Virus record (IMG/VR): IMGVR_UViG_3300006924_000048
Coordinates: 1-45,339 of that record
From: a virus
DNA: 45,339 bases
Strand: one strand, 5' to 3'
Part shown: one piece after another, positions 1,922 through 43,657 of the stretch
How the letters are laid out: each line of letters starts with the position of its first letter
Numbering within the stretch: the stretch's first letter is position 1
The notes under the pieces: model-generated
The model's input: only the letters and a program-made list of their open reading frames with translations
What the model was told of the DNA's origin: nothing
Database searches by the model: none
Position numbers and translations under genes: made by a program

Positions 1922-1937
1922 ATTATACGATAGTTCC
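1922..1937 (-). promoter_or_regulatory. GGAAC-N5-TATAAT promoter
   Basis: On the minus strand, GGAAC (1937-1933), 5 nt, then TATAAT (1927-1922). The ATG at 1915 follows after 6 nt. It fills the 23-nt gap between two genes. Confidence 0.6.
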
Positions 1938-1938
1938 T

Positions 1939-2307
1939 TTACCCTGTTATTTCTTCAGGATCTGTCTGTAACACTGCACGTATTTGCGCATCTAGTTTGA
2001 TACTATTGTTACATTTAGGACATCTATGTATATTATCGGAGTTCATAAAGACCTCCTCTTCAAATACATGGTTTGTGCAGGGACATTCTACTGAAACCCT
2101 ACTTAGCTCCAAAAGATTGTCGAGATTAACTTCAAATTCACTATATAACGCGTCTTTATCAAGCTGTAAACGTGAATTAGTAATCCAAAACACTATAAAT
2201 TGAATACCTGTAACTAGAGAAAATGTATTCCAAAAGCCTATGAATTCTTTAAGTCCAAACGCGAATAACGCTGATACAACAGCGGTAATTAATATCGATT
2301 TTACCAT
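1939..2307 (-). CDS. Two-TM membrane protein with C-terminal zinc ribbon
   Basis: Hydrophobic segments at residues about 4-20 and 26-43 predict a membrane hairpin at the N-terminus. A soluble tail follows with C75-x-C77 and C96-P-K-C99, a four-cysteine zinc-ribbon-like arrangement. The family is not recognised. Its ATG overlaps the stop of the upstream gene by one base, so the two are translated from one message, probably driven by the TAAATA promoter before the upstream gene. A late membrane function is possible but not shown. Confidence 0.65.
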   Translation of the reverse strand: MVKSILITAVVSALFAFGLKEFIGFWNTFSLVTGIQFIVFWITNSRLQLDKDALYSEFEVNLDNLLELSRVSVECPCTNHVFEEEVFMNSDNIHRCPKCNNSIKLDAQIRAVLQTDPEEITG

Positions 2308-2636
2308 TATATAGATATTTTAGCTATATCTTTGGGAAGTTCAAGTATTAAGTTGTTAATTTTATCAATTTTACCTTGCAATTCCTCAACATTATTTTTA
2401 TCTACACTACCGTTCTCTTTAACATTACTAAGCATTCTATGTACATCAGCTAAACATACAAATGTATTACCTAATACTTCAGTAATACGATCAAGCTCAA
2501 AGGGAAGTTGTGGTGGTGCTTTTTGATTTTTTTCATCTTCTTTATACTTTGCTTGTTGATTATCAGTATTAAGTATTTGCTGTATAGGGGTATTGTCAGG
2601 CCTAATAGAATAAGGTGAAGAATATCCAGAATTCAT
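2307..2636 (-). CDS. Unknown 109-aa protein
   Basis: The N-terminal half is polar and disordered (Asn/Gln/Lys-rich). The C-terminal half (residues about 50-105) is predicted helical or coiled coil, ending with IDKINNLILELPKDIAKI. The family is not recognised. It is the first gene of a minus-strand trio. A TAAATA box lies 7 nt before the ATG, back to back with the TAAATA box of the divergent plus-strand gene, so both may be late genes. Confidence 0.6.
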   Translation of the reverse strand: MNSGYSSPYSIRPDNTPIQQILNTDNQQAKYKEDEKNQKAPPQLPFELDRITEVLGNTFVCLADVHRMLSNVKENGSVDKNNVEELQGKIDKINNLILELPKDIAKISI

Positions 2637-2643
2637 ATGTAAT

Positions 2644-2649
2644 TATTTA
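2644..2649 (-). promoter_or_regulatory. TAAATA late-type promoter
   Basis: TAAATA on the minus strand, 7 nt before the ATG at 2636. It faces an almost symmetrical TAAATA (2660-2665) serving the divergent gene. Both are followed by ATTAC, giving an imperfect inverted repeat over the 34-nt gap. Confidence 0.5.
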
Positions 2650-2659
2650 GTCGAGAGCA

Positions 2660-2665
2660 TAAATA
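2660..2665 (+). promoter_or_regulatory. TAAATA late-type promoter
   Basis: CATAAATA ends 5 nt before the ATG at 2671. In T4 late promoters (TATAAATA) transcription starts about this far downstream, so the mRNA would begin at or next to the start codon. Confidence 0.55.
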
Positions 2666-2670
2666 ATTAC

Positions 2671-3114
2671 ATGACAAATTTCGAAAAGAGGTTCTTTAAA
2701 GTACTCAAAGAAAATGACGAAGATAAAGAAGCATTTGAACTTGAGCTTGATGATGATACATCTGCAGAAGATTTCGACGTTGATGTTGAGGCAGATGCAG
2801 ATGCAACTTTAGACATGAACGACCCTGCAGCGGCAGCAGCTCAAGCAACAGCTGAAGTGCATGCTCAGCAAGTTAACACTCTTAAAGGTTGGATTGCATC
2901 TGGTGATGAATTTCTTAAAATGTTAAATGACGCAGAAGATCCTAATTCTGTTCAAGCAGTTTTAGCTAATGCACAAGCGGATACGATATTTGATCGAATG
3001 AAACAATCAGAACAGCGTAAGATTGCTCGTGTCGCGACTGAGTTAGCTTCACTTAATGAATCGTTTAGAGGTTATCTCGCTCAAACAGATAACGCTCAGT
3101 TTAGAGGAGTCTAA
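2671..3114 (+). CDS. Small acidic late protein with capsid-targeting-like N-terminus
   Basis: This 147-aa protein starts MTNFEKRFFKVLKEND. The amphipathic N-terminal helix ending in L-K-E resembles the T4 capsid-targeting sequence cut by protease gp21 at (L/I)-x-E. A very acidic segment follows (residues about 20-50), then an Ala-rich helical body. The family is not recognised. A TAAATA box 5 nt before the ATG and a strong hairpin terminator downstream (3150-3181) make it a one-gene late transcript. It converges on the primase gene with a 4-nt overlap. A prohead or internal-head role is inferred, not shown. Confidence 0.65.
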   Translation: MTNFEKRFFKVLKENDEDKEAFELELDDDTSAEDFDVDVEADADATLDMNDPAAAAAQATAEVHAQQVNTLKGWIASGDEFLKMLNDAEDPNSVQAVLANAQADTIFDRMKQSEQRKIARVATELASLNESFRGYLAQTDNAQFRGV

Positions 3115-4145: not shown

Positions 4146-4151
4146 AAAGGT

Positions 4152-4180: not shown

Positions 4181-5029
4181 CTTACTCGATAACACAAATA
4201 AGCTATGCCACTGGTCTTTCTTTTTAAGAATATTACTAAGTTCATATTCTTCACAGTAAGTAACGAATTCAGACCACCTGGGTGTAACAGTACTATCAAG
4301 CTGTTGCTGGTAATACTCTTTCTCACTATCATGATGCATCACTTCTTGTAGATTGAACACAGTCATATTTTTTGTAAAGATCTCTTCCTGCTCATCTGTT
4401 AGGGTAAGCTCACCATCAAGCCATTTTCGAACTTTAGCTTTACCAAATCTAGGAATACCTGGAACATTATCAGACTTATCACCCAAAAGACATTTAGCGT
4501 TAAGCCATTCATTTTTTGTATAACCAGTATCCTCAGTAAAGGTCTCAAGAACAAACTCACGCTTGCGAATAGCATCATATAGAATAGTATTCTTATCAAC
4601 TAATTGAAGAAAGTCTCTATCAACAGATACAATTACCTTATCACCCTCAAAGGTCTTACAGATATAAGCCACAATATCATCAGCTTCACGTTCTCGAGGA
4701 AAAATAGAAGGTATACCTAAACATGAAAGTAGCTCTTTAATGCGATCATTCTGATGGTGAGGTGTACTATCACTTGAGCGGTTACCCTTATAACCATCTA
4801 ACTGCGCTTTACGCACATTTGGTTGATAATCCTCTTTCTCATCCCAAACTACAATAGTTTTAGTAGGCTTAAACTTATTTGCATACGAGTAGATAGCATT
4901 AAGAGTAAAGTAAATATGTAATCGAGCAATTTTTTCTACATCTTCAATATCCTGACGCTTACTTTGATTTTTAGCAGTCCACCATGTTCTATGGATAAGA
5001 TTATTACCGTCAATTATTAATGTTTTCAT
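4160..5029 (-). CDS. rnh: 5'-3' exonuclease / RNase H (T4 Rnh-like, FEN family)
   Basis: The protein probably removes RNA primers and flaps from Okazaki fragments. Metal-ligand motifs of the FEN/PIN fold are in order: IIDGNN at residues 5-10, EREADD in the middle, SVDRDF shortly after, and LLGDKSDNVPGIP leading into the helix-3-turn-helix. It has about 289 aa, close to T4 RNase H (305). I chose ATG 5029, which opens MKTLIIDGNN as in the family; a longer frame adds ten unlikely residues. A GGAAC-N5-TATAAT element sits about 60 nt upstream, inside the preceding gene. It overlaps that gene by 20 nt. Confidence 0.88.
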   Translation of the reverse strand: MKTLIIDGNNLIHRTWWTAKNQSKRQDIEDVEKIARLHIYFTLNAIYSYANKFKPTKTIVVWDEKEDYQPNVRKAQLDGYKGNRSSDSTPHHQNDRIKELLSCLGIPSIFPREREADDIVAYICKTFEGDKVIVSVDRDFLQLVDKNTILYDAIRKREFVLETFTEDTGYTKNEWLNAKCLLGDKSDNVPGIPRFGKAKVRKWLDGELTLTDEQEEIFTKNMTVFNLQEVMHHDSEKEYYQQQLDSTVTPRWSEFVTYCEEYELSNILKKKDQWHSLFVLSSKLLSMFK

Positions 5030-5273
5030 TTTTACTATATTGTGCTGCGCAAACCTCAAAGATATCTCGTGAGAGTTCCTCTACATACTCAATTATATCA
5101 GAGTTCCTTCCGAATGACCATTTATCTGTGGGTACTAAAACATTTTTCATTTCAGGCACAGAAAGGCACCCAACTCCTTTGTCTGTTATCTCGCAAACAA
5201 CAAACATTTGACCTACAAAATCGCCTGTCTGTACTGCATATGTCTGTCTCTTCTTAACTGGATCCATTACCAT
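5010..5273 (-). CDS. Unknown 87-aa protein
   Basis: This small, probably beta-rich protein (QTGDFVGQMFVVCEI, then GCLSVPEM) has a helical C-terminus. The family is not recognised. It overlaps the gene before it by about 20 nt and the RNase H gene after it by 20 nt, so it belongs to the same translationally packed replication operon. The start could be either of two methionines (5273 or 5267). A GGAAC-N5-TATAAT element lies within its coding region and probably serves the RNase H gene. Confidence 0.6.
   Translation of the reverse strand: MVMDPVKKRQTYAVQTGDFVGQMFVVCEITDKGVGCLSVPEMKNVLVPTDKWSFGRNSDIIEYVEELSRDIFEVCAAQYSKNENINN
5092..5107 (-). promoter_or_regulatory. GGAAC-N5-TATAAT promoter (internal)
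   Basis: On the minus strand, AAGGAAC (GGAAC at 5107-5103), 5 nt, TATAAT (5097-5092). It lies inside the 87-aa gene, 62 nt before the RNase H ATG. This is the only exact copy not next to its start codon. Confidence 0.45.
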
Positions 5274-12524: not shown

Positions 12525-12911
12525 CTATAGTTTTTCCAGTTGGATGTCCATATCTTTGCGTATTCGTGCTGTTAGTTCCTTACTTTCTTCTATTTTACCA
12601 TAATAAAGTCTAAACTCACGAGGTATCCTCCAGAAGAAGTCCATTACACCAGTAACTTCATGATAAGCGAATGTATAGTGCGGATATTGCACTCCATCAA
12701 CTTCAATCCAACGCTTACGTTTCTTTTTCTTCTTCTCAATACCCAATTTCTTTAGAGTATTCTTACCAAGACCTCGTACTTTAAAAAGATCCTCACTACT
12801 ACGATACGGTCGCATACCGACAATGTTTTTTGCGGTTAACTTACCAACTCCTGGCAGAGCTCGTAGCTCTTTATCATTCATATTATTGAAATCCTTATAA
12901 CTCAGCTTCAT
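12525..12911 (-). CDS. Helix-hairpin-helix DNA-binding protein
   Basis: Two helix-hairpin-helix motifs of the ComEA type are visible (PGVGKLTAKNI at residues 20-30 and VRGLGKNTLKKLG at 45-57). A Lys/Arg cluster (KKKKKRKR) comes next, then a beta-rich C-terminal part (YPHYTFAYHEVTGVMDFFW). Non-specific DNA or RNA binding is likely. The role is unknown. The start is supported by a GGAAC-N5-TATAAT promoter 11 nt upstream. It is the first gene of the minus-strand group leading into the amidotransferase. Confidence 0.75.
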   Translation of the reverse strand: MKLSYKDFNNMNDKELRALPGVGKLTAKNIVGMRPYRSSEDLFKVRGLGKNTLKKLGIEKKKKKRKRWIEVDGVQYPHYTFAYHEVTGVMDFFWRIPREFRLYYGKIEESKELTARIRKDMDIQLEKL

Positions 12912-12922: not shown

Positions 12923-12938
12923 ATTATAACTAAGTTCC
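12923..12938 (-). promoter_or_regulatory. GGAAC-N5-TATAAT promoter
   Basis: On the minus strand, AAAAGGAAC (GGAAC at 12938-12934), 5 nt, TATAAT (12928-12923), then 11 nt to the ATG at 12911. A TTGCAA also lies 16 nt upstream of the -10 box. Confidence 0.6.
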
Positions 12939-12991: not shown

Positions 12992-14917
12992 ATGAGCTCG
13001 TTCGATAACTTCTACACCAGGTTACAATCTTTAAATGAAGCAAGAAAATCTCCTGTGGAGGCTTTAGTTCCTGGTGCTACCGGTGTTACTAAGCAAATGC
13101 GATCAGCAGGGTTAAGTTCTGCACCATTAGACACCATAAGATTTATTAGAGAGTTATTATTTAACCTAGATGTTATTTCCGAAGAGGAGTTAAATGTTGT
13201 TAAGATGGGTAAAGGCTTTACCGGTAAAAAGCAAGCCATGCTTAAAGTACTACAAGATAACCAAGATGCAATTAATGCTAAATCAGATGAAATTTCACAG
13301 AAGATTGAAAGTACTTTAGATGATTTTATTTCAGGTATGGGTGCTAACCGCTCACGGGAAGAAAAATATGCTGCTCAAGCCGCTGCTCAAGAGTTAGCTG
13401 CTCAAGCACGTGCTGCTAAATCCGGGAAAGAGATGGATGACGCACTTGCTGATGTTATCTCTGATGAAAAGCTTATTATTAAAGCATCACTTGCTAAGGC
13501 TATTCAAGAATTGGAAGACCTTCCTGGAGGTGAAGATATTTCACCGGATGTTCTTAGTGAGATTAAGAAGTTTGCTCCAAAAATTAATACTATCGAGCAA
13601 CTCGAATCGTTTGTTAAGCAACTTAGTGCAATGGAAGAATATCAATTGCCAGCTGCTTACCTTTCCAGTACTGTTAAGGCAATCAAAGGTGGTATGGAGG
13701 ATATCGAAATGGAAGATCAAGAAGATCCAGATCATGGATTTGACGCTACAAAATCAGATCTTGATAAAGATGGTAAGATTTCCAAATATGAGCGTACGAG
13801 GGGTGAAGCAATTGCTTCTTCAATGAGTAAAGAAGATAATGAGAACTTGACTCAAACGCAATTAGACGCTGGTGATCGTCTTAGTGCTATGTATCGCAAA
13901 GATATGCTAGCTGATATTGATAAGATGCATAAATCTATGGTTGGTGATGGTACCGATCTAACTACTGGCACAAAGTTCAGTGATGCTGAAGTATCAGATC
14001 TTTATAAGCAGGCCGCTGAAAAGAATCTTTCTAAATATAACAGAATTAATAAGCAGAGCAACGGTAAACAGCAAGATAGAGTAGATGTAGCTCAGAGTAT
14101 TTTAGATAATGTTATCAAAACACAAGCAGATAACAAGCAACCACGCGCGGTTGAGAATGCAGAAGATCCTAATATTGAGGCATTGGCTCAGGTTGAAGTA
14201 GAAGAACTTGGTGATGGTGAATTACCTGATGATTACCATGAAGATGCTGAGCAAGAGATTAAGGTAGGGTCAATGCTTACAACTAACTACAATGAAGTGG
14301 TTCATGTTGACAAGATAGATACTGAATCTGATATGAAGGGTAGACCAATCTACTACTGTACAGATAAAGACGGTGGTGAGCATGTTCTTTATCCGGAAGA
14401 AGTCCTCGCTGTATCACCAGAAGATGGTGAAAATCCAGAATTCGAAGCTGCCTTAACAGCAGCGGATGACATTCATGGTGGAAATCCTGGCTCGGGTTAT
14501 GAAGAGTATAAGAAGATGATCGAGGCTAAACTTGGTCGTCCTTGTACACCTGATGAGTGTGACGATATCAAGATTAAGATAGATCACCATAGTTTCAAAG
14601 GTGAAGAAGCTGACATGAAACAAGTCGCCGAGAGTAAGTACACAACTGCTGACTACCTTACTGATATCTATTCATCAGTTGAGCCTATTGTGGAAAGCAC
14701 AGTCAACGAAAATGGTCAAACAACTCCTACTCGTCAATACCTTGTTGAAAGGTATGAAGAGGCCATTGAAGATGTCTACACATCACAATATCTAATTGAG
14801 CAAAAAGCTCAAGATTCTTTACCTAAACAAAAGAAGGAAAACAATCTTAGCTTTAAAGAGCGCTTCCAGCCTAAGACTAACTGGCAACTTGAAGAAGTTC
14901 GTCGCTACGGTCTTTAG
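12992..14917 (+). CDS. Large late protein with EF-hand loop and capsid-targeting-like N-terminus
   Basis: This 641-aa, acidic, largely helical protein starts MSSFDNFYTRLQSLNEARKS. The (L/I)-x-E site L-N-E followed by Ala matches the gp21 cleavage rule for T4 head-targeted proteins. An Ala-rich coiled-coil region spans residues about 90-180. A perfect EF-hand calcium loop lies at 256-267 (DLDKDGKISKYE). A small beta domain follows around 425-470 (KVGSMLTTNYNEVVHVDK). I do not recognise the family. The TAAATA promoter and plus-strand position argue for late expression. It ends 4 nt into the convergent QueC gene. Virion or internal-head localisation is inferred. Confidence 0.75.
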   Translation: MSSFDNFYTRLQSLNEARKSPVEALVPGATGVTKQMRSAGLSSAPLDTIRFIRELLFNLDVISEEELNVVKMGKGFTGKKQAMLKVLQDNQDAINAKSDEISQKIESTLDDFISGMGANRSREEKYAAQAAAQELAAQARAAKSGKEMDDALADVISDEKLIIKASLAKAIQELEDLPGGEDISPDVLSEIKKFAPKINTIEQLESFVKQLSAMEEYQLPAAYLSSTVKAIKGGMEDIEMEDQEDPDHGFDATKSDLDKDGKISKYERTRGEAIASSMSKEDNENLTQTQLDAGDRLSAMYRKDMLADIDKMHKSMVGDGTDLTTGTKFSDAEVSDLYKQAAEKNLSKYNRINKQSNGKQQDRVDVAQSILDNVIKTQADNKQPRAVENAEDPNIEALAQVEVEELGDGELPDDYHEDAEQEIKVGSMLTTNYNEVVHVDKIDTESDMKGRPIYYCTDKDGGEHVLYPEEVLAVSPEDGENPEFEAALTAADDIHGGNPGSGYEEYKKMIEAKLGRPCTPDECDDIKIKIDHHSFKGEEADMKQVAESKYTTADYLTDIYSSVEPIVESTVNENGQTTPTRQYLVERYEEAIEDVYTSQYLIEQKAQDSLPKQKKENNLSFKERFQPKTNWQLEEVRRYGL

Positions 14918-15657
14918 AGCTTCTTACAGCCTTTAGATAAGTATAGCTCGTTCAACTTAGATTGCTGTACATATTGAATAGGGTCTTGATATCCGGCATC
15001 AACGAAGCCCTTCACCCTCATACTAGAGGAAGGTGTTGTAGCATCTGCTAGTCCGTCTTTCCTATTAGAGTAACACGTCCAAGTATTACTAAAATCGACA
15101 CCTAACCGTACTCCTTCTTCAACGATAGCCTCTTTACTCATTGTAAGCAACGGGGCTTCAATATTGATACGATGCTCTCGGTTAAGAGCAATTAATGCAT
15201 TCATAGAGTCGACAAACTCGTTAGAGCCATCCCAATAACCAGCAAGGCTATCGACTTCAGCTGCACCATACCATACAGTATCAGCACCTTTAGCCTCAGC
15301 ATAAGCACAACCAATAGTATTAAACAACTGATTACGAAATGGGACATAACTTACAGGTTGAGCATCACCAGCCATCTTACTAATATCTGGATTGTCGATA
15401 TCTTCATTAGTAAGAGAAGAGGTAGGAGCTAGGTGCTTAATGAATCCAACATCAGCTATATAATGAGTTACTACTAAATCCGAAACTTTAGCCTTTACCG
15501 CTTCTATCTGACTCGATACACACTTTAGTTCACGCTTATGACGTTGACCATAATCGTATGAGATAAGATGAATTTCTCTAAATCCTCTATCTACTGCCAT
15601 ATGTAGTAGGACTACTGAGTCCATACCACCTGATATGCTTAATACTAATTTACTCAT
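14914..15657 (-). CDS. queC: 7-cyano-7-deazaguanine (preQ0) synthase QueC, variant zinc site
   Basis: QueC converts 7-carboxy-7-deazaguanine plus ammonia and ATP to preQ0. The PP-loop SISGGMDS is at residues 7-14, followed by SYDYGQRH, then SYVPFRNQLF and WYGAAEVDS, all in the family order. QueC enzymes normally bind zinc with four cysteines near the C-terminus. Here only C195 (TWTCYSNRKD) remains, and the later cysteines are replaced by a GLADATTPSSSMRVKGF stretch. The flanking RVKGF and AGYQDP residues are conserved, so this is substitution rather than a frameshift. The gene overlaps uvsX by 8 nt and is probably co-transcribed with it. Confidence 0.88.
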   Translation of the reverse strand: MSKLVLSISGGMDSVVLLHMAVDRGFREIHLISYDYGQRHKRELKCVSSQIEAVKAKVSDLVVTHYIADVGFIKHLAPTSSLTNEDIDNPDISKMAGDAQPVSYVPFRNQLFNTIGCAYAEAKGADTVWYGAAEVDSLAGYWDGSNEFVDSMNALIALNREHRINIEAPLLTMSKEAIVEEGVRLGVDFSNTWTCYSNRKDGLADATTPSSSMRVKGFVDAGYQDPIQYVQQSKLNELYLSKGCKKL

Positions 15658-16810
15658 TTTTATCTAAGGAATCTTTTAGGATTTCATTCTCTTCTTTAGG
15701 AACTACTACCTCTTCTTCTACCTCATCTGGTACTTCACTCTCTTCACCACCACTATAGGCCCACTCAGTCTTGATCTTCTCTTCAAGTACCGGTAGGATC
15801 GTATTCTCCCAAAGGTCAATATCCTTACGGAAGTTCTTATAGTAACCAATCTTCTTACCATCGGGTAGTTGATAAGTAGAACCAGTTTGAATAACAGCAC
15901 CTACACCTACAGCAAGGTCAAGTAGACCATAATAACGGTCAAGTCCAGTATGAAACGAAAGGAACATTTCACCTTGAAGGTATTGCTTAATGAATCGATT
16001 CTTACGAGTAAGAGCTCTAATAAGAACACCTGCATAGTTCTTCTGACCTACCGCGGTTTCAGCATCCATAGTCTTACCACCATCACTCTTCATAGGCTTA
16101 CGAGCCAACTGAACAGTTACAGAAGGCAAATACACGATTGACTTACCACCAGGCATATGCTTCTCAATAGAAGGAAACATAGCAGCTGGATCATCATAAA
16201 CATGGTTAGTACATAAGATAGTAGTCTGAGTTGTAGCACCCAAGTTAGTACAAGTCTGCATAAGAGACTTCATCGCACGCGCTTTACTACCCATATCAGA
16301 AGAAGTACTCTCTTTACCCATACGACTATGCTCAAGTTCTGATTGAAGATTACCAAGCGAGTCGATAGCTACAATAAACTTACCTTCTAGACCTTTTTCC
16401 TTAACTGAAGTAAGGAACTTATACAACGCGTTACGAGTCTGCTCGATAGTAACACATGGCACATACTTCACTTTACTAATATCAAGACCAATACGAGCTG
16501 CTCCCTCAGGATCAACAGCGTTCTCCGTATCAAATATAACTGGAATCAAACCCTCCTTTTGTGCATTAGCTAGAATCTTGAGAACGAACAATGTCTTACC
16601 AGTCATAGACTCACCACCTAACATTGTTACTCGACCTTTAGGAATACCACCATGAATAGAACCTGAGACAATAGCATTAAGAACATAGCTACCTGTATCA
16701 ATCCAACCACCTACACGCGACAACGTACTATCTTCTAAGTATGTTGCAAACGGATTTACTTTATCGATTGAATCTAACGCCGCTAGCGTATCTTTATCAA
16801 AATCACTCAT
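15650..16810 (-). CDS. uvsX: UvsX, RecA-like recombinase
   Basis: UvsX carries out strand exchange in recombination-dependent replication. Walker A is GGESMTGKT (residues 65-73), followed by VIFDTENAVDPE and Walker B FIVAIDSLGNL. Loop L2-like GGKSIVYLPSVTVQLARKP leads into the C-terminal core. The last 50 residues are acidic. Its length of 386 aa matches T4 UvsX (391). The promoter TTGATT-N16-TATAAT ends 6 nt before the ATG, so the mRNA is probably leaderless. Its partners UvsY and UvsW are at the far end of the window. Confidence 0.93.
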   Translation of the reverse strand: MSDFDKDTLAALDSIDKVNPFATYLEDSTLSRVGGWIDTGSYVLNAIVSGSIHGGIPKGRVTMLGGESMTGKTLFVLKILANAQKEGLIPVIFDTENAVDPEGAARIGLDISKVKYVPCVTIEQTRNALYKFLTSVKEKGLEGKFIVAIDSLGNLQSELEHSRMGKESTSSDMGSKARAMKSLMQTCTNLGATTQTTILCTNHVYDDPAAMFPSIEKHMPGGKSIVYLPSVTVQLARKPMKSDGGKTMDAETAVGQKNYAGVLIRALTRKNRFIKQYLQGEMFLSFHTGLDRYYGLLDLAVGVGAVIQTGSTYQLPDGKKIGYYKNFRKDIDLWENTILPVLEEKIKTEWAYSGGEESEVPDEVEEEVVVPKEENEILKDSLDKNE

Positions 16811-16816: not shown

Positions 16817-16844
16817 ATTATATGAACCGAATTGTATTAATCAA
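16817..16844 (-). promoter_or_regulatory. Early-type promoter of uvsX
   Basis: TTGATT (16844-16839), 16 nt, TATAAT (16822-16817), 6 nt, ATG. This is the textbook example of the early class here. Confidence 0.7.
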
Positions 16845-26523: not shown

Positions 26524-29100
26524 CTATGCAAATAAATCAAATAGTTCTGTTTGAACATTTTCAGAAGGTTTACGGATCGACCACCCTACACTATCATAAA
26601 ACCGTGCAATTGATTGAAAGAGAATCTTATCAAACATCTTCTCATAGTCAATCTTGAATAGCTCATTGAACTCAGATGGCCATTCGTATTTGAATCCCAT
26701 CGACTGAAGACCGTATTTATTAGGAGTTTCAATATACATAAAGCGAACCTTATCACCAGAGCTTATACTCTCATACTTGTTACCTGTACCAAGCTTTTCT
26801 AGTATTTGATTATAGTAATAAGCTGACTTAGCATGCACTGGCATACCCTTTACTGTTTGCCATTCACGGCATTGTACCGCATGCTTTTCATAACCCTTAA
26901 TACCCATAACAAACGATATCTCCTCCGGTGATAACGTCTTAAAGGTCTCATATGCTTCGTTAAAAATCTTATTAGTTTTACCCAAATCCTGTGTAGTAAG
27001 CATAGTCTCAATAATACTCTTAGCGTAAGGCTTAATAGCATTAGGCATAGTAGTGCGAACAACTTCTACACCAGTATACTTAAACTTATTCTCTTTAATA
27101 CCCTCGTCATCAAGGATATGCATAACGTAACGCTTCTTCTGAAGGAACGTTGCAACATCAGCAATCATCTCACGCTTGAATACAAATCGTGGATCGTCGG
27201 TTAAGAGAGCTTTCTTAGCCCAGACTGTAATGTCATCGTTAAGACAGTCTTCAATCTCTTGAATCTTATCGTATGTTTCTTGATGAATAAGACCTTTGGA
27301 TTGATCTTCCCAAAACTTAACACCATTCTTAATTAGAGGCGCAATAGAGATATAAGATGAGTCAGTATCATTATAAACAATACACTCCTCAAGATTATGC
27401 TCGGATATATTCTCTGAACCAACCTCATTACGGATAAAGTTTTTAAGACACTCGTTAGAGTACTTAATAACTGCTTGACCAGTTAGAGTAACACTTGCTG
27501 CGATGTCATCATCCCCAATAGGGGCATTTTTGTTACCCATATATCCATAACAAGAGTTAATCAAAATCTTGATAACCATTTGTTGGGTATTGAGACGCTC
27601 AACTTCGTACTTGAGGTTGATGTTCTCTGGATCTTTCTTAAGCTTTTTAGTATTAGCAAAGAGCTTCTTCTTAATCTCAACACGTTGATTGTAATAGTAT
27701 TCAAGAAACTCAGGAATAATACCGCGTTTCTTCTGACTAAAAAGAAAACCAGCTTTTGATAATGTACATTTTTCATCTTTAAGGAACTTTACAAAGTCTC
27801 TTTTACTTAATGTAAACAATCTACCAGAGTTATGCTGAATAGTAATTTCTTTACCATCATTCTTCTCAATCTTACCCACCTTCGTCTCAGGCGAAGTATT
27901 AAGAGATATCATTACGTTAGGGTATAGAGAGTTAGCATCAAACGATATAATATTCTCTTTGAAACCTCGCTTGGGTTCGGCAACATACGCGCCAGGATTC
28001 TTATGATCCTTATTACCATTACGTACAAAGGTGGAAATAACCTCACCGCGCTTTCGCGCACGTATAGTTAACGCTCCGTTAATAACACCGATCGTACCCA
28101 TAGCACCTTCAAGAGTAGTTAAACCAACGTAAGACAGCATTCTCAGTAGAGGAATGTATTGAAGCTTCTCTTCCAACTCAACAAGAAGGTTAACGTCTTG
28201 AACGTTGTAGTCAATAAACTTATTCCAGTCCTGATCAGCAAGTTCATGGAGAGCTAATCCTTCATAATCGATCTTCTTCTGACCTAACTCAAGTTCACCA
28301 ATAGCATCAAGCTTATACGATTCTCGCAACTTAAGACAGAAACGTTTATACACATCAAGATAGTCGAGATTAGCAACACCGTCGAAGTAGTAACGCTTTT
28401 GCTCACGCCCAAATGTACCCTTACGCATGCGGAAATAAACATTCCGCAGAGGCGAGAGGCGATCTACATACTCTTGACCTAAAATACGTTCCATTCGATT
28501 AACAATGTACGGTATATCGAATCCCTCAGAGTTCCAACCACTGATAATGTCAGGATGTTGTCTCTCAATATACTTAAGAAAAGCTAAGAACATCTCACGT
28601 TCAGACTTACAGTAATGATAAATCATATCATCGCGACCTTCACCAGTATACTCGTGAATACCAAACGTATTAAACTTTTTACTAAAGTTATCCCATACTG
28701 TTATAACATTACAGACGTGAGTAGGGTCATCTACATCAGGAAAGGTATCGACAGAATAAGTCTCAATATCAATAAAGCAATACTTGATAGGATTACTATT
28801 GAACTCGGGCTTTTCGTTTTCCTCCCAATACATATCAAGAAGAAACTGCTGCGCCGGCGGTGAGTTCTCAAAGACCCGCTTAACTCCAGAGTCTTGAAGG
28901 AACTTATAGCGATTGTAACCGGTATTAAAGGAACGCTTCTTTACTTTAGTACCAAAAATAGAGGTCTTATCTCCTCTAGGATCTTCCGTATAAAGGTAAG
29001 GCTCGAAAGAGCACTCTCTACGAATACGATCACCAGTCTCGCTCCAACCAAATAAAGTAACCGTTCCTTCACGGCCATTATACACTACATTACGATACAT
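26524..29100 (-). CDS. 43: DNA polymerase, family B (T4 gp43-like)
   Basis: This is the replicative polymerase with 3'-5' proofreading. Exo I is FIDIET (D111, E113), Exo II is GWNSEGFDIPY (D195) and Exo III is YNVQDVN (D302). Polymerase motif A is SFDANSLYPN (D388), motif B is KILINSCYGYMGNK (about 511-524), and motif C is YNDTDS (D578, D580). All catalytic acids are present. The length of 858 aa compares with 898 in T4. The start is supported by GGAAC-N5-TATAAT, 8 nt before the ATG. Confidence 0.96.
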   Translation of the reverse strand: MYRNVVYNGREGTVTLFGWSETGDRIRRECSFEPYLYTEDPRGDKTSIFGTKVKKRSFNTGYNRYKFLQDSGVKRVFENSPPAQQFLLDMYWEENEKPEFNSNPIKYCFIDIETYSVDTFPDVDDPTHVCNVITVWDNFSKKFNTFGIHEYTGEGRDDMIYHYCKSEREMFLAFLKYIERQHPDIISGWNSEGFDIPYIVNRMERILGQEYVDRLSPLRNVYFRMRKGTFGREQKRYYFDGVANLDYLDVYKRFCLKLRESYKLDAIGELELGQKKIDYEGLALHELADQDWNKFIDYNVQDVNLLVELEEKLQYIPLLRMLSYVGLTTLEGAMGTIGVINGALTIRARKRGEVISTFVRNGNKDHKNPGAYVAEPKRGFKENIISFDANSLYPNVMISLNTSPETKVGKIEKNDGKEITIQHNSGRLFTLSKRDFVKFLKDEKCTLSKAGFLFSQKKRGIIPEFLEYYYNQRVEIKKKLFANTKKLKKDPENINLKYEVERLNTQQMVIKILINSCYGYMGNKNAPIGDDDIAASVTLTGQAVIKYSNECLKNFIRNEVGSENISEHNLEECIVYNDTDSSYISIAPLIKNGVKFWEDQSKGLIHQETYDKIQEIEDCLNDDITVWAKKALLTDDPRFVFKREMIADVATFLQKKRYVMHILDDEGIKENKFKYTGVEVVRTTMPNAIKPYAKSIIETMLTTQDLGKTNKIFNEAYETFKTLSPEEISFVMGIKGYEKHAVQCREWQTVKGMPVHAKSAYYYNQILEKLGTGNKYESISSGDKVRFMYIETPNKYGLQSMGFKYEWPSEFNELFKIDYEKMFDKILFQSIARFYDSVGWSIRKPSENVQTELFDLFA

Positions 29101-29108: not shown

Positions 29109-29124
29109 ATTATAGTGAAGTTCC
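29109..29124 (-). promoter_or_regulatory. GGAAC-N5-TATAAT promoter of DNA polymerase
   Basis: On the minus strand, AAGGAAC (GGAAC 29124-29120), 5 nt, TATAAT (29114-29109), 8 nt, ATG 29100. A second GGAAC lies 11 nt further upstream. Confidence 0.65.
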
Positions 29125-32165: not shown

Positions 32166-33223
32166 TGTTTGCAACGCTCGTATAAACCTAACGTATATTC
32201 AATTATAGACTTAGCATCGTCTAAATCCATCGTTCCAATAAACTCTTCTATAGCTTGCTCTACATCCACCCCAGACAAGTCCTCAATATCCTCCCTATTA
32301 TCTAAAATACGGTTAAAGTTAATATCGTAATCTATAGAGAGTTGTTCCGGCTGTAGTTTGTTAAATACAGCAGTAAGAACATCCATGTCATCCTGCGAAA
32401 TATTCTTATCTACTTTTAACTTAACAATGTTATTACTAATTCTATTTTTGACTATTGGTGTAATTTCACCCTCTTCTACTAATTCACTAAGAGTTATTTT
32501 TTCGTAACATGGAGAAACATTATTTTCGAAGAACTCATACTCTAAGGTATCCAAGTCTAATATATGATAACCTTTTCGATTACCAGCATCACCAAAATCC
32601 ATTTGAAAGGGATTACCAACATACAGAATAGTACCAGCACCAAACTGCTTTTCATGTCTAGTATGAAAATGACCAGATATAACTAGTGAAGATTTTTTAA
32701 GAAGATCTTTAACACGAACACCTTCTTCACAAATCTTAAAAGCATTCATTTTAAAAGTCTCAATTTCAAAGTGACCGAATATTACATCACTATCTTCAAT
32801 AACCTTAGTAGGTGTATTCCATGGGCAAAAAGAAAGCTTTTTATCAAATGCCTCTAACGTCTGATATTGCTCTAATATGGTAACGTTTTTTCTATTCTTA
32901 AAAATAGATAGCGAGTTTACATCTGTTCTATGTTTATAGTAAATATCATGATTGCCGGTTATTGCAATAAGATTAAACTCTTCAAACATATCTAAAATAT
33001 CTGCAGATACTTGCAAGGTATTAACAGATATTTCTGAACGGTTGTGATGCCAATCACCACAAAAAATAATGTCTTTAATACCTTTATCCCGACACTCTTC
33101 ACGAAACCAGTTAGCCCATTCAATAGCATATTTATGCCATTCAGAACTATTAGAGTGTACTCCAAGATGTAGGTCGCTAAAGATAGCAACTTTATTCTTT
33201 TTAATAGTCGGAATCATCATCAA
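32162..33223 (-). CDS. 47: Recombination endonuclease subunit gp47 (Mre11/SbcD-like)
   Basis: This is a metallophosphoesterase nuclease, the partner of gp46. Motifs are FSDLHLG (residues 15-21), FCGDWHHN, ITGNHDIYYK and ISGHFHTRH, all metal ligands in order. Its length of 353 aa is near T4 gp47 (339). Three consecutive Met codons make the exact start uncertain by 6 nt. The gene begins inside the end of gp55 and overlaps gp46 by 4 nt, so gp55, gp47 and gp46 form one unit. Confidence 0.93.
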   Translation of the reverse strand: MMMIPTIKKNKVAIFSDLHLGVHSNSSEWHKYAIEWANWFREECRDKGIKDIIFCGDWHHNRSEISVNTLQVSADILDMFEEFNLIAITGNHDIYYKHRTDVNSLSIFKNRKNVTILEQYQTLEAFDKKLSFCPWNTPTKVIEDSDVIFGHFEIETFKMNAFKICEEGVRVKDLLKKSSLVISGHFHTRHEKQFGAGTILYVGNPFQMDFGDAGNRKGYHILDLDTLEYEFFENNVSPCYEKITLSELVEEGEITPIVKNRISNNIVKLKVDKNISQDDMDVLTAVFNKLQPEQLSIDYDINFNRILDNREDIEDLSGVDVEQAIEEFIGTMDLDDAKSIIEYTLGLYERCKQ

Positions 33224-33632
33224 TAGGCTTCACATAAACAGTACCGTGTGTGTTTCTGGGATCTGTCATATACTCTTCGTATACCTTCTCTTTATATGAA
33301 GTAATAGTTTGATGATGCTTTTTCTCTTTCTTAATACGATTTATAAAAGCGTGATAAGCAATAGTTGTAAAATATGAGAATGGATTAGACTTAGTCTCAA
33401 ACTTATATTTTTTATATTTTAAGGCAGCATACATTTTAATTAATGCATCACCAATCATATCGTCCTTATAGCTATAGTTAATAAAGGATCCATTATAGCT
33501 CAACCCATAAGCAATCTTTTTAATATTCTCAGCAAGGTCGTCAGTCAAAATATCTGAGTCGTAATACTTACGCAAACTCTCTCTGAATTCTGCTGGTTTA
33601 ATATAATACTCTTCTTTAGCTGCTTTAGACAT
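33201..33632 (-). CDS. 55: Late-transcription sigma factor gp55
   Basis: In T4, gp55 directs host RNA polymerase to TATAAATA late promoters. The core SYKDDMIGDALIKMYAALKY and NPFSYFTTIAYHAFINRI match sigma region 2 as it appears in gp55 proteins. Length is 143 aa (T4 185). The C-terminus (PIDDDSDY) is acidic, but I do not see the T4-type clamp-binding tail. Its presence supports reading the TAAATA boxes of this window as late promoters. The promoter is TTGATC-N16-TATAAT, 8 nt before the ATG. Confidence 0.88.
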   Translation of the reverse strand: MSKAAKEEYYIKPAEFRESLRKYYDSDILTDDLAENIKKIAYGLSYNGSFINYSYKDDMIGDALIKMYAALKYKKYKFETKSNPFSYFTTIAYHAFINRIKKEKKHHQTITSYKEKVYEEYMTDPRNTHGTVYVKPIDDDSDY

Positions 33633-33640: not shown

Positions 33641-33668
33641 ATTATAGCCTTAATTTAATAAAGATCAA
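33641..33668 (-). promoter_or_regulatory. Early-type promoter of gp55-gp47-gp46
   Basis: TTGATC (33668-33663), 16 nt, TATAAT (33646-33641), 8 nt, ATG 33632. The -35 box overlaps the end of uvsW. Confidence 0.65.
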
Positions 33669-36316: not shown

Positions 36317-36332
36317 GGAACAGCTTTATAAT
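36317..36332 (+). promoter_or_regulatory. GGAAC-N5-TATAAT promoter
   Basis: GGAAC (36317-36321), 5 nt, TATAAT (36327-36332), 14 nt, ATG 36347. A TTGCTA also lies 16 nt upstream of the -10 box. Confidence 0.6.
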
Positions 36333-36346: not shown

Positions 36347-36814
36347 ATGAAAAACTACTTTGACCTAACAAATGACGTAGAATACGTCAATTTAAGGCCA
36401 TATTTAGATGTATCTTACAATGAGTATCAATATTACATAACAGAATCTGAATTATGTAATATTTCTGCTAAAGAAAAGAAGCAACTTAGTTTACATTTTA
36501 TATTAACACAAATATTTTATGTTTGTACGCAATCTGATCGTAAAAAATGCTTTTATTACGATTGCAGTAGTGAGGATAACGAATTTAAGCTTATTAAGCT
36601 CATTTTTAGTGCATTACCCTCGCGGTTAGTTGTTAGAGAACAATCGTTTGACAATTTTGTTAAAGAAGATTGCATGTACTACCCATATATACCAGTTGAC
36701 ACCAGTAAAATATGCTGGAAAAAGTTTAAAAAGCTTCTTAAGAGATATAATCTCACTGCTTTAGAGAAAAACTTTACTAAAAATAATAACGTTAAATTAT
36801 CGCTAATACATTAA
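36347..36814 (+). CDS. Unknown 155-aa protein
   Basis: This protein is rich in Tyr, Lys and Cys (YLDVSYNEYQYYITESELC, then RKKCFYYDC). It is mixed alpha/beta with a basic C-terminus. The family is not recognised and no capsid-targeting-like start is present. It has its own GGAAC-type promoter, so it may be expressed earlier than the surrounding late genes. Confidence 0.6.
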   Translation: MKNYFDLTNDVEYVNLRPYLDVSYNEYQYYITESELCNISAKEKKQLSLHFILTQIFYVCTQSDRKKCFYYDCSSEDNEFKLIKLIFSALPSRLVVREQSFDNFVKEDCMYYPYIPVDTSKICWKKFKKLLKRYNLTALEKNFTKNNNVKLSLIH

Positions 36815-38641: not shown

Positions 38642-38657
38642 GGAACACCGATATAAT
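38642..38657 (+). promoter_or_regulatory. GGAAC-N5-TATAAT promoter
   Basis: AAAGGAAC (GGAAC 38642-38646), 5 nt, TATAAT (38652-38657), 7 nt, ATG 38665. It starts 1 nt after the stop of the previous gene. Confidence 0.65.
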
Positions 38658-38664: not shown

Positions 38665-39882
38665 ATGCGTAGTTTTAAACAATTTCATCTAAATTCACAG
38701 CTTTTAACTGAGGCTAAAGCTAATACTCACTTAACTCACTTAGAAGAACTGGTGTTAACTAAGGGAGAGAAGGGATATGATGTGGCTCGTACCATGATTA
38801 GCAATCTTCTCTCTAAATTACAGGGTAAATCCAAAAGAAGCGTCAATACTTCAGTGAAATGGGATGGAGCTCCTGCTATTTTTGCTGGAAAGCACCCAGA
38901 AACCGGTAAATTCTTTGTTGGTACTAAGTCTATCTTTAATAATGAGCCTAAAATCAACTATACAGATGCTGATGTTGAGATGAATCATGGTCATGCACCT
39001 GGACTTGCTGATAAACTTAAGAAAGCTCTTAAATATCTTCCAAAATTAGGTATTAAAGGCATTTTACAAGGTGATTTCATGTTTGATTCATCAATGCTTG
39101 AGACAGTAATGCAGGATGGTGTTAAACATATCGCATTTAAACCTAATACTATTAAGTATGCCGTCGAAGCAGACTCAGATCTTGGTAAAGAAATTGCAAA
39201 TTCTGTGTTTGGTATTGTTTTTCATACCGGTTATAGTGATTTAAACTCACCACCTCAATATGGTATCAATGTAAAAGGTCTTAATAAAGTACCAGGTGTA
39301 TGGGTTGATGATGCTGTATTTACTGATGCCACAGGAACAGTTACTCTTACAAAGGACGAGGCTAAGCAAGTTAGAGATTTAGCAAAGACTGCTGATGGTA
39401 TCAAAGTTAAATACAAAGATCTTCCATTAGACTTACTTAACATTTATGCTAACTCAGAGATTCGTGAAGGAAAATTTTTAGAAGATGCAGAGGGTTCATA
39501 TAAAGGCTTTATGAACTGGATGAAGGGACGAATGGAAAAAGAGATTGCTAAGCGCAAATCTAAAACCGGTAAAGAGCGCATTACAGAAGCATTTAAAAAG
39601 AAACTAGCTGATATTAAGTCGCGTCAAAAAGATATTATAAATTTATTTAAAATAAGTAAACTCCTATCCCAAGCTAAACAAATTTTTGTTAACAAATACA
39701 ATAATGCCGTTTACAATACAAAGCACTTTTTAGATAATGGTGACGGTACTCTTACTGCTTCTAACCCAGAAGGTTATGTTGCTGTAGGTAAAGAGGGTGA
39801 TGCAGTAAAACTAGTTGATCGTTTAGAGTTTAGTAGAGCTAACTTTAGTGGAGGTCAAACATCTACCCCAATTACCAAATGA
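38665..39882 (+). CDS. Ligase-like nucleotidyltransferase with capsid-targeting-like start
   Basis: It starts MRSFKQFHLNSQLLTEAKAN, with L-T-E followed by Ala as in T4 internal proteins. Motif I of the DNA/RNA ligase superfamily is visible as K65-W-D-G68 inside SVKWDGAPAIFAG, where the Lys would be adenylylated. GTKS follows at 86-89, then GILQGDFMF near 132-140 as a motif III candidate, and HIAFKPNTIKYAV. The C-terminal third is Lys-rich. The motif order supports a nucleotidyltransferase core, but ligase activity and substrate are unproven. Its stop overlaps the next ATG (ATGA). Confidence 0.7.
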   Translation: MRSFKQFHLNSQLLTEAKANTHLTHLEELVLTKGEKGYDVARTMISNLLSKLQGKSKRSVNTSVKWDGAPAIFAGKHPETGKFFVGTKSIFNNEPKINYTDADVEMNHGHAPGLADKLKKALKYLPKLGIKGILQGDFMFDSSMLETVMQDGVKHIAFKPNTIKYAVEADSDLGKEIANSVFGIVFHTGYSDLNSPPQYGINVKGLNKVPGVWVDDAVFTDATGTVTLTKDEAKQVRDLAKTADGIKVKYKDLPLDLLNIYANSEIREGKFLEDAEGSYKGFMNWMKGRMEKEIAKRKSKTGKERITEAFKKKLADIKSRQKDIINLFKISKLLSQAKQIFVNKYNNAVYNTKHFLDNGDGTLTASNPEGYVAVGKEGDAVKLVDRLEFSRANFSGGQTSTPITK

Positions 39883-41035: not shown

Positions 41036-41052
41036 TGCTTTAGTAATTAAAC

Positions 41053-41499
41053 ATGAAAACATTTTTGCAATATATACAAGAAAAGTCCGTTTTAGGGCTT
41101 ATTGAATTTTTCGATATTCAAGGTATCGGTAAAGTACCCGCTAAATTAGATTCTGGTAACGGTGCTTACAATGTTTTGCATGGGGAAGATATTCAAGAGC
41201 AGGGTGATAAAGTTTTCTTCCGAACTATAAATGGTAAAACACTGCTACTTCCAAAGAAGGGTGAAATAACAATTAACGTTGGTGCAGGTAATATGGAACA
41301 TAGACCTGTAGTTGAATTGGATTTTAAAATTGGTGAAAAAGAATTTACAGGTATTCCATTCTCAATTGGCAATAGAGCATCTAATTTATATAAGATACTA
41401 GTTGGTAAAGACTTTATTCAACAAGATCTAGATGCTTTAATAGATGTAAGTAAAGAAAACATTGCTGACGAAAATATAGAAGTCAGCATAGACGATTAA
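41053..41499 (+). CDS. Retropepsin-like protease (RimB/'Zn_protease' family) with capsid-targeting-like start
   Basis: It starts MKTFLQYIQEKSVLG, with I-Q-E fitting the head-targeting rule. The body then follows the family previously called ATP-dependent zinc proteases: GLIEFFDIQGIGKVPAKLDSGNGAYNVLH carries the aspartic-protease D33-S-G triad. HRPVVELDFKIG and FSIGNRASNLYKILVGKDFI make up the second half. One DSG per chain implies a dimeric enzyme as in retropepsins. The substrate is unknown. It ends 2 nt before the convergent tRNA-Thr gene. Confidence 0.72.
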   Translation: MKTFLQYIQEKSVLGLIEFFDIQGIGKVPAKLDSGNGAYNVLHGEDIQEQGDKVFFRTINGKTLLLPKKGEITINVGAGNMEHRPVVELDFKIGEKEFTGIPFSIGNRASNLYKILVGKDFIQQDLDALIDVSKENIADENIEVSIDD

Positions 41500-41501
41500 C
41501 G

Positions 41502-41576
41502 TGGAGCCATCTGTCGGATTTGAACCGACGACCTGCTGATTACAAATCAGCTGCTCTGCCACTGAGCTAAGATGGC
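41502..41576 (-). tRNA. tRNA-Thr (TGT)
   Basis: The acceptor stem GCCATCT pairs with AGATGGC. The anticodon arm is GCTGA-TTTGTAA-TCAGC, so the anticodon is TGT. The T-arm contains GGTTCAAATCC. The discriminator is T and the CCA end is encoded. Length is 75 nt. Confidence 0.95.
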
Positions 41577-41583
41577 ACTAAAA

Positions 41584-41658
41584 TGGAGCGGGTGATGAGA
41601 TTCGAACTCACGACATCAACCTTGGCAAGGTTGCGCTCTACCGCTGAGCTACACCCGC
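41584..41658 (-). tRNA. tRNA-Gly (GCC)
   Basis: The acceptor stem GCGGGTG pairs with CACCCGC. The anticodon arm is CAACC-TTGCCAA-GGTTG, so the anticodon is GCC. The T-arm contains AGTTCGAATCT. The discriminator is T and CCA is encoded. It lies 7 nt from tRNA-Thr and 6 nt after queD, so all three are likely co-transcribed. Confidence 0.95.
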
Positions 41659-41664
41659 TGACAC

Positions 41665-42306
41665 TTATCCCCAAGTAGTACCATCGAACCAACCACCCTT
41701 GGTTTTTGTACTTGGGTTACCACCAACCGGCGCAGCTCGTGGATCAGCTACTGGAGCTTGAGTCTGTTCAGATTTTTCAGTTGCAATAGGACCATGTATG
41801 TCTTCTAATTGTACTGGCTCAGTACTAGGTTGTGTCTCTACAAATGATACTTTAACACCATCACTAAACCTATGACAAGTTGCAAAGTTGTTCTCATGTT
41901 CATTAATTTGTACTTTTTGTACCCTCACACGACCATCAGTAGCTTCGTCTGTAAAGGTATCTGCTGTCTTGAGAACAAATTCTGCAAAACGTTCACAACC
42001 TACACCACTATCTAAAATAACTAATTCCGCAGCACCTACCGCATCAAGTTGTTTAAATAAATCAAGTTGAGGATCGTCTCCAGCAACAACTAACTTATGA
42101 TCGAATGTATGTTCTAAACTCTTCTTAAGATCTTTGAGGCCACCAAAGTCCATAACCCAATTACGTTCGTCTAGCTTATCACATTCGAAAGTAATATCTG
42201 CTGTAAGTCTGTAGCCATGAATAAACTGACAGTGACTATGAGTAGATCTCCATTGTCTAAAGGCTGCTGAACCTAAATCAATTACTTTGTTACTCGTAAA
42301 TTTCAT
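41665..42306 (-). CDS. queD: 6-carboxytetrahydropterin synthase QueD-like, with C-terminal tail
   Basis: QueD converts dihydroneopterin triphosphate to 6-carboxytetrahydropterin in preQ0 synthesis. The core FRQWRSTHSHCQFIHGYRL supplies the first zinc His region, the catalytic-type Cys (C26) and H30, and WVMDFGGLKDLKKSLEHTFDHKL completes the signature. The usual HGH is HGY here. After about residue 155 there is a Pro/Thr-rich tail ending GGWFDGTTWG that ordinary QueD lacks. ATG 42306 is chosen because the promoter (TTGATT-N17-TATAAT) lies 7 nt before it and inside the longer frame. Confidence 0.83.
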   Translation of the reverse strand: MKFTSNKVIDLGSAAFRQWRSTHSHCQFIHGYRLTADITFECDKLDERNWVMDFGGLKDLKKSLEHTFDHKLVVAGDDPQLDLFKQLDAVGAAELVILDSGVGCERFAEFVLKTADTFTDEATDGRVRVQKVQINEHENNFATCHRFSDGVKVSFVETQPSTEPVQLEDIHGPIATEKSEQTQAPVADPRAAPVGGNPSTKTKGGWFDGTTWG

Positions 42307-42313
42307 ATAATAT

Positions 42314-42342
42314 ATTATATACTGATTGTATAGGTAAATCAA
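42314..42342 (-). promoter_or_regulatory. Early-type promoter of queD-tRNAs
   Basis: TTGATT (42342-42337), 17 nt, TATAAT (42319-42314), 7 nt, ATG 42306. Confidence 0.6.
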
Positions 42343-42496
42343 CTGCTTAGTTAAATTATTCTATATTACTGATATCTAGAAAGACTGAGAAATAGGTTCT
42401 TCTGTACATTCTCTACAATCCATTTATTCATTTGAGACTCCGATTGCAAGTGTTTCACGAAAATAATTTAAAAAAGTTAAAAATGAATGAGATTAG
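42343..42496. other. Non-coding gap between queD and folE2 promoters
   Basis: About 150 nt between the two divergent promoters (229 nt between the two start codons), the longest gene-free stretch in the window. I see no ORF, tRNA or strong hairpin. A preQ1-type riboswitch was looked for because of the gene context, but no convincing match was found. Confidence 0.5.
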
Positions 42497-42524
42497 TTGA
42501 TTATTACATTCAGTATGTTATAAT
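42497..42524 (+). promoter_or_regulatory. Early-type promoter of folE2
   Basis: TTGATT (42497-42502), 16 nt, TATAAT (42519-42524), 11 nt, ATG 42536. A second overlapping TATAAT (42525-42530) lies 5 nt before the ATG. Confidence 0.6.
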
Positions 42525-42535
42525 TATAATTGACT

Positions 42536-43585
42536 ATGAGTAAGACAGAAAATAACTCCAACTATGAATGGCTAGGTGATGACGATGAGCTCACCGGTGA
42601 AAAGGATACTATTGCAAAAGATATTATGGGTAGTGAATGTGCTAATGGATATGTACCGCCAGTTCGCGAGTATGATGATACGGTAGATGCTAGTAAAGAG
42701 TATATTGCTTCATTACCAGATCTACAAAATGGGCCTTCTAGTCTTATTCAAGGAGCGCCAGTTGCTATTCAGCAGGTTGGTATTCACAACTTTAAGCTAC
42801 CACTTAATTATGAAACCCGTAATGGTAAAACTATTGAGCTTGAGACTAGTGTTACAGGTAGTGTAAGTTTAGAAGCACATAAAAAGGGTATTAATATGTC
42901 TCGTATTATGCGTAGCTTCTATGATCATAAGGATGAAACTTTTAGCATTGGTAAGATTAAAGATGTACTAACTACATATAAAGAGAATCTTAAGAGCTTT
43001 GACTCACGTATTATGCTTAAGATTTCCTATCCTATTAAACAGACGAGCTTACGTAGTGGTTTAGAAGGTTATCAGTATTATGATGTTGTACTGGAAGGGG
43101 ATCTTACTAAGGATGGTGAGTTTAAAAAGTATCTTCATTTTGATTTTGTATATTCATCTGCATGCCCTTGTAGCTTTGAGCTTAGTGAGCATGCAGAGAA
43201 GTATCGTAACCGTGCGACAGTACCTCATAGTCAGCGCAGTGTTGCACGTGTTAGTGTTAGGTTTGAAGATAAGCTTTGGATTGAAGATCTTCAAGAGCTC
43301 TGCTTAGATGCTCTACAGACTGAAACGCAAGTAATGGTTAAGCGTGAAGATGAGCAAGCATTTGCTGAGAAGAATGGAGCATTTCTCAAGTTTGTTGAGG
43401 ATGCTGTTCGTCTTCTATATTCACGTCTAGATAAAGATGAGCGAATTAAAGATTTTAAGATTGTAGCTTCTCATAACGAATCGCTTCATAGTCACAATGC
43501 TATTTCTGTAATAGTCAAAGGTATTGAAAATGGCTTCTCCGCAGGAGTTGCACGTGATGTCTTTGAGTCAACAGGCTTGCGTTAG
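42536..43585 (+). CDS. folE2: GTP cyclohydrolase IB (FolE2)
   Basis: It converts GTP to 7,8-dihydroneopterin triphosphate, the first step towards preQ0. Family motifs in order: QQVGIHNFKLPL, HKKGINMSR (about 115-123), SSACPCSFELSEH with the metal-binding Cys region (C210, C212), and VPHSQRSVARV (about 231-241). The N-terminal 70 residues are an extra acidic segment. An upstream in-frame TTG at 42530 is less likely than ATG 42536. A very strong terminator follows directly. Confidence 0.92.
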   Translation: MSKTENNSNYEWLGDDDELTGEKDTIAKDIMGSECANGYVPPVREYDDTVDASKEYIASLPDLQNGPSSLIQGAPVAIQQVGIHNFKLPLNYETRNGKTIELETSVTGSVSLEAHKKGINMSRIMRSFYDHKDETFSIGKIKDVLTTYKENLKSFDSRIMLKISYPIKQTSLRSGLEGYQYYDVVLEGDLTKDGEFKKYLHFDFVYSSACPCSFELSEHAEKYRNRATVPHSQRSVARVSVRFEDKLWIEDLQELCLDALQTETQVMVKREDEQAFAEKNGAFLKFVEDAVRLLYSRLDKDERIKDFKIVASHNESLHSHNAISVIVKGIENGFSAGVARDVFESTGLR

Positions 43586-43602
43586 AAGATAATACAATCT
43601 TT

Positions 43603-43634
43603 AAAGAGTACCAGCGCGCTGGTACTCTTTTTTT
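43603..43634 (+). terminator. Strong intrinsic terminator after folE2
   Basis: A perfect 28-nt palindrome (AAAGAGTACCAGCG and its complement) is followed by a T-run. It isolates folE2 from the next GGAAC-type promoter 8 nt further on. Confidence 0.9.
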
Positions 43635-43641
43635 ATTAAAA

Positions 43642-43657
43642 GGAACTTATATATAAT
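43642..43657 (+). promoter_or_regulatory. GGAAC-N5-TATAAT promoter
   Basis: AAAAGGAAC (GGAAC 43642-43646), 5 nt, TATAAT (43652-43657), 5 nt, ATG 43663. It lies between a terminator and the gene, so it is the only promoter that can serve it. Confidence 0.7.

Follow-up and report, generated by a model that had tools for sequence, protein, structure and literature searches.

The sequence element GGAAC-N5-TATAAT very probably defines a dedicated promoter class of a marine T4-like phage lineage, a judgment that covers the explanation as a whole, including the factor that recognizes the element and the timing of its use. The sequences show TATAAT as the -10 box and GGAAC, located at about -22 to -18 and separated from it by exactly five nucleotides, as the substitute for the -35 box. 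The class is placed at the heads of operons, upstream of tRNA genes and, at one site, behind a terminator, and it marks non-structural genes. In the mechanism that we propose, transcription would start at or near the A of the ATG, with T at -1 and A at +1. The mRNAs would then have no leader, or almost none, With less certainty, we suggest that host RNA polymerase would act together with a phage-supplied specificity factor (an RpoD-like sigma, an activator at -20, or both), and that the genes concerned would form a middle or delayed-early regulon replacing the MotA/AsiA system.

The window analyzed here is the whole 45-kb virus record (45,339 nt) of a T4-like phage, with genes for a family B DNA polymerase, gp46/gp47-like SbcC/SbcD, a UvsW-like helicase, UvsX and gp55. 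Its DNA polymerase reaches no more than about 31% identity with those of known phages, but IMG/VR contains many close relatives; the sole match in a near-DNA search against known phages was a tRNA. Naming the host from the closest bacterial RpoD was rejected, as the best matches were only 33-54% identical and were scattered. The motif was counted in 17 related contigs (1.13 Mb), and a simple ORF caller supplied 1,009 gene starts from the window and 11 relatives (12 contigs in all). Contigs G004-G017 and others were fetched via the motif, which biases motif densities; the spacing, exclusion, tRNA, synonymous-site and class-function tests are not dependent on motif density. As for other features, a short tandem repeat encoding TPSVSVTPSVS is found at the contig start (1-1658) and probably belongs to a repetitive structural or adhesin protein. 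QueC-like (14914-15657, recognized by eye), QueD-like (41665-42342) and FolE2-like (42530-43585) genes in the window belong to the queuosine-precursor pathway, possibly for DNA or tRNA base modification. Two ARAGORN tmRNA calls (L220:941-1267 and L236:4252-4661) have long, odd tag peptides and are probably false.

Copies, spacing and placement of the element

Seven exact copies of GGAAC-N5-TATAAT are present in the window, at the coordinates and on the strands given in an earlier note on this DNA. Dinucleotide shuffles produced a mean of 0.04 and a maximum of 1, in agreement with that note's view that the copies are not due to chance. The copies, together with a hairpin adjoining one of them, are as follows:

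1922..1937, minus strand: predicted GGAAC-N5-TATAAT promoter, 6 nt before gene 1655-1915 (86 aa)
5092..5107, minus strand: GGAAC-N5-TATAAT within ORF 5010-5273, 62 nt before the RNaseH ATG
12923..12938, minus strand: predicted GGAAC-N5-TATAAT promoter, 11 nt before the HhH gene 12525-12911
29109..29124, minus strand: predicted GGAAC-N5-TATAAT promoter, 8 nt before the gp43 DNA polymerase gene 26524-29100
36317..36332, plus strand: predicted GGAAC-N5-TATAAT promoter, 14 nt before gene 36347-36814
38642..38657, plus strand: predicted GGAAC-N5-TATAAT promoter, 7 nt before the DUF6267 gene 38665-39882
43642..43657, plus strand: predicted GGAAC-N5-TATAAT promoter, 5 nt before gene 43663-44238 (PHROG 624 DNA-binding protein)
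43603..43630, plus strand: intrinsic terminator-like hairpin with a T tail; its end is immediately 5' of the 43642 promoter

AA precedes GGAAC at all seven sites, extending the element to AAGGAAC. Six copies are situated 5, 6, 7, 8, 11 or 14 nt upstream of a gene start, matching the range of 5-14 nt described earlier. The family of the 86-aa gene carries the GGAAC class in 5 of 7 contigs, the 12923 site is inside a divergent intergenic region of 80 nt, and the gene downstream of the 5092 site encodes a T4 RNaseH-like 5'-3' exonuclease. The DNA polymerase (gp43) and HhH genes had been correctly named among the downstream genes, but our analysis gave no ligase assignment for the one described as ligase-like.

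When spacings of up to 24 were scanned in the window, N5 gave seven occurrences, N16 and N24 one each, and all other spacings none. Variants with up to two mismatches were not enriched in the window (26, with the seven exact copies included, versus 24.6 expected), indicating that the element is close to all-or-none. The motif is also kept in related phages, as the earlier proposal would have it: in the 17 related contigs all 186 copies with a spacing of four to seven are N5, and gp43 relatives fetched by protein rather than by motif gave 58 at N5 and again none at the other three spacings. It is retained upstream of gp43 in 41 of 79 relatives, and in their gp43 leaders it sits between the upstream stop codon and the ATG. 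Exact copies outnumbered those with one mismatch by 98 to 11, and an exact TATAAT was found at 105 of 115 GGAAC sites compared to 38 of 121 TTGA-class sites. The GGAAC class is thus far stricter than the TTGA class, which favors a dedicated factor.

The behavior of these sites supports their assignment as promoters and not as translation signals. TTGA at 17-19 nt from the -10 box accompanied only 3 of 76 GGAAC sites, as opposed to 45 of 82 other start-proximal TATAAT boxes; this mutual exclusion (Fisher p = 2.7e-13) bears out the earlier observation that the class lacks a -35 box, and the measured location of GGAAC agrees with its placement near -20. Little information content was found between -40 and -24 in GGAAC sites. 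A co-directional neighbor within less than 20 nt was present for 18% of GGAAC genes and 60% of box-less genes (p = 2e-18), an enrichment at operon heads as strong as that of TTGA-class genes. Four GGAAC sites occur 12-37 nt upstream of tRNA genes where 0.12 would be expected (p = 9e-6), and at one of these, before a tRNA-Arg gene, no ATG lies between the element and the tRNA gene. For the intragenic site we compared 12 homologs (not picked by the DNA motif; one of the six peptide patterns used for some of them overlaps the site) and obtained a same-codon fraction of 0.92, versus 0.56 and 0.69 on either side. The codons AGG AAC and the following ATA were held at the synonymous level in these homologs, nearly all of which have the RNaseH start 62 nt downstream. 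Finally, orthologous gene families hold their promoter class across contigs, for example in 6 of 6.

Promoter classes, their genes and start-codon geometry

When hexamers were tabulated by distance from the ATG across the 1,009 starts, three patterns dominated: TAAATA, TTGA-N18-TATAAT and GGAAC-N5-TATAAT. The -10 position of all three classes ends 5-6 nt before the ATG. Representatives of the two contrasting classes in the window are:

33641..33668, minus strand: predicted TTGA-N18-TATAAT promoter, before the gp55 late sigma gene 33201-33632
16817..16844, minus strand: TTGA-N18-TATAAT-N6-ATG, before UvsX 15650-16810
44943..44948, minus strand: late-type TAAATA box, before the PhoH gene 44213-44935

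A -10 box located 6 nt before an A, with a pyrimidine at -1 and a purine at +1, has the look of a transcription start at that A. T at the -1 position contributed 0.96-1.47 bits in the GGAAC sets at distances of 5 and 6 nt, the late set at 5 nt and the TTGA set at 6 nt. From the -10 box 6 nt before the ATG and the T(-1)A(+1) context, we infer leaderless or near-leaderless mRNAs that would start on the A of the ATG or only a few bases from it. Since some GGAAC sites lie 7-23 nt or more from the ATG, not every transcript would be strictly leaderless. Shine-Dalgarno-like 5-mers were found at 0.8-1.0% of starts here versus 18-30% in T4, HTVC008M and C48C1. The placement of TAAATA boxes 5-6 nt before the ATG is unlike that in T4 and cyanophage, and no late-box peak at this distance was detected in T4, the Prochlorococcus phage P-SSM4 or C48C1. 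A small late-box peak 5 nt before the ATG (11 of 190 starts) was seen in the Pelagibacter phage HTVC008M (L248-L250), which despite this peak retains Shine-Dalgarno sites at many genes. The leaderless geometry, its sharing by all promoter classes and the intragenic nature of the 5092 copy were missed in the earlier note.

As judged from sequence assignments, the GGAAC class marks mostly non-structural genes. Among genes with a recognizable HTVC008M homolog, all 19 structural genes with an assigned class were late and none were GGAAC. The TTGA class was found at gp55 in 5 of 5 contigs, UvsX in 5 of 5 and gp32 in 4 of 5, and the GGAAC class at gp43, PHROG 624 and an exonuclease, as well as at small ORFs, tRNAs and a phage-encoded RpoD-like sigma. 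The arrangement can be followed in the 197-kb contig G028, in which most GGAAC sites fall within one block (about 22-45 kb) of small ORFs, tRNAs and the sigma gene; in this contig TAAATA boxes occur at structural genes and TTGA promoters at gp32, UvsX and gp55.

Candidate recognition factors and competing explanations

MotA/AsiA was rejected as the reader of the element because the profiles are absent: the MotA profile PF09114 had no match in 15 contigs (T4 positive control, 3e-63) and the AsiA profile PF09010 was not found in a search run without a positive control; most of the contigs may be fragments. An ECF sigma was rejected as well, on the absence of the ECF region 4 profile PF08281. The profile for a T7-like single-subunit RNA polymerase, PF00940, was likewise not found, with no positive control run. 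What relatives do encode is an RpoD-like sigma70 factor with regions 1.2, 2, 3 and 4, present in eight GGAAC-bearing loci (L217:9940-11088 on the minus strand, L273 and L275-L280), near tRNA genes in most contigs and 55-100% identical where the protein is complete. The start of the sigma gene itself carries GGAAC-N5-TATAAT in 7 of the 8 loci. The earlier suggestion of a promoter class read with an altered sigma is supported as to the class, and for the sigma it gains a phage-encoded protein in the same gene block of relatives; we consider this protein a candidate recognizing factor whose recognition of the motif is putative. Because its region 4.2 helix matches ordinary RpoD, the phage sigma alone does not explain GGAAC, and the candidate additions are a helper protein bound at -20 or an altered contact in the spacer near -17/-18, where the beta-prime zipper and sigma region 3.0 touch the promoter (PMC5101437). 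The sigma gene is not in the window and may sit elsewhere in its genome; it was also not found in the GGAAC-rich contigs G004 and G009, which are possibly fragments. We dropped the idea that sigma presence tracks GGAAC abundance, as the 171-kb contig G001 ends partway through the orthologous block and its lack of the sigma gene is therefore uninformative. That a phage-specified polymerase, with the RpoD-like sigma and with or without a small activator, reads GGAAC (-22 to -18) and TATAAT as a rigid unit is a tentative proposal, to which we would give slightly less than an even chance.

Alternatively, unmodified host RNA polymerase may favor GGAAC at -20 combined with a perfect -10 box, so that the class would be immediate-early and would need no phage factor. 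The canonical -10 box is compatible with this, as is the inclusion in the class of small ORFs and tRNAs, which are usual contents of early blocks, and GGAAC overlaps and lies just upstream of the -17/-18 spacer region. However, we regard this as unlikely, given that near-invariance over 11 bases is beyond the tolerance of ordinary sigma70 promoters and that the TTGA class is loose in the same genomes. To our knowledge, no bacterial genome carries a GGAAC-N5-TATAAT class. An explanation in which the copies are chance occurrences, or a spreading repeat without function, is scarcely credible; the short length of the element is all that speaks for it, against 0.04 copies expected in the window, reversed-pattern controls near zero, flanking sequence not common to GGAAC sites, and the synonymous-site constraint at the intragenic copy.

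The element could also act at the RNA level, with AAGGA as a Shine-Dalgarno sequence and a UAUAAU hairpin that brings AAGGA near the AUG, as reported for some T4 genes. AAGGA is upstream at every window site, the 36317 site is able to fold, and the gp43 leaders of more distant relatives have perfect stems of up to 9 bp, differing in sequence, between GGAA and the ATG; the element in such leaders reads TAGGAA-CTATCTTAT-TATA-ATAAGATAG-ATG, a perfect hairpin. For the class as a whole we nevertheless find this very improbable, as folding was no better than with shuffled partners at distances of 5 nt (p = 0.33) and 6 nt (p = 0.28), no pair covaries, and all distances pooled (133 non-redundant sites) reached only p = 0.04. 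Moreover, the element is also found upstream of tRNA genes and at 62 nt from the RNaseH start, and the same ATG-proximal place is taken in other genes by TTGA/TATAAT and TAAATA boxes. A Shine-Dalgarno-hairpin-AUG element was thus rejected as a general account, on the lack of covariation and on the tRNA and intragenic sites, but may hold for gp43 of the sister group. The lack of pairing and covariation at the common spacings makes the hairpin a special feature of sister-group gp43 and not the nature of the motif. The hairpins in those leaders (L183-L205, e.g., L196 before 10001) are a possible gp43 autoregulatory operator.

Relation to known promoters and implications

As had been claimed, the GGAAC class is distinct from T4 MotA boxes, from ECF -35 elements and from the phage's own -35/-10 and late promoters. 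It resembles T4 middle promoters (MotA/AsiA) in pairing a TATAAT -10 box with an upstream element that is specific to the phage and replaces the -35 box, and in serving replication and other non-structural genes. However, the MotA box (TGCTTtA) is near -30 while GGAAC is at about -20 with a 5-nt spacing, the MotA and AsiA profiles were not found here, and the mRNAs here appear leaderless. ECF promoters have a consensus -35 element GGAAC and so share these letters, but they place it about 16 nt from the -10 box, against 5 nt in the present class, whose -10 box is TATAAT. T4-type late promoters (TATAAATA, gp55) are used in the same phage with the same 5-6 nt placement, and the gp55 gene is present; the GGAAC class differs from them in its box and in its genes, the late ones being structural. 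The promoters of the phiEco32 and 7-11 sigmas (TAATGTATA) are similar in having a -10-centered motif without a classical -35 box and are read by a phage-encoded sigma (PMC4331800), but the motif differs, and here the sigma is a full RpoD-like protein with a putative link to the motif. In Deinococcus-Thermus leaderless promoters, the -10 box likewise directly precedes the start codon, adjoining the ORF, and the mRNA begins at the AUG (PMC12340547); the present case differs in that it concerns a T4-like phage with three promoter classes and a fixed GGAAC element.

According to reviews and isolate papers, marine T4-like phages lack MotA and AsiA, and their middle transcription is unclear or undetectable (PMC2984593; PMC9004378). 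One suggestion is that their middle promoters may have diverged too far to be recognized (PMC9004378). A putative middle promoter was noted in P-SSM4 and Syn9 (PMC2984593); the 100 kb of P-SSM4 that we examined contained no GGAAC-N5-TATAAT, and no report of the element was found in the literature searched, which was covered in part. For phages that do not have T4's usual middle-stage activator, the class described here may supply the missing middle promoter, and it offers a concrete candidate that can be tested in a marine lineage not yet in culture. A further prediction is that a large myophage translates leaderless mRNAs throughout its genome, and attention is drawn to the RpoD-like sigma that the phages encode within the same block of genes. 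If our proposal is correct, it would represent a bacterial promoter architecture in which a sequence-specific spacer contact takes the place of the -35 contact, used in phages whose whole programme would consist of leaderless mRNAs.
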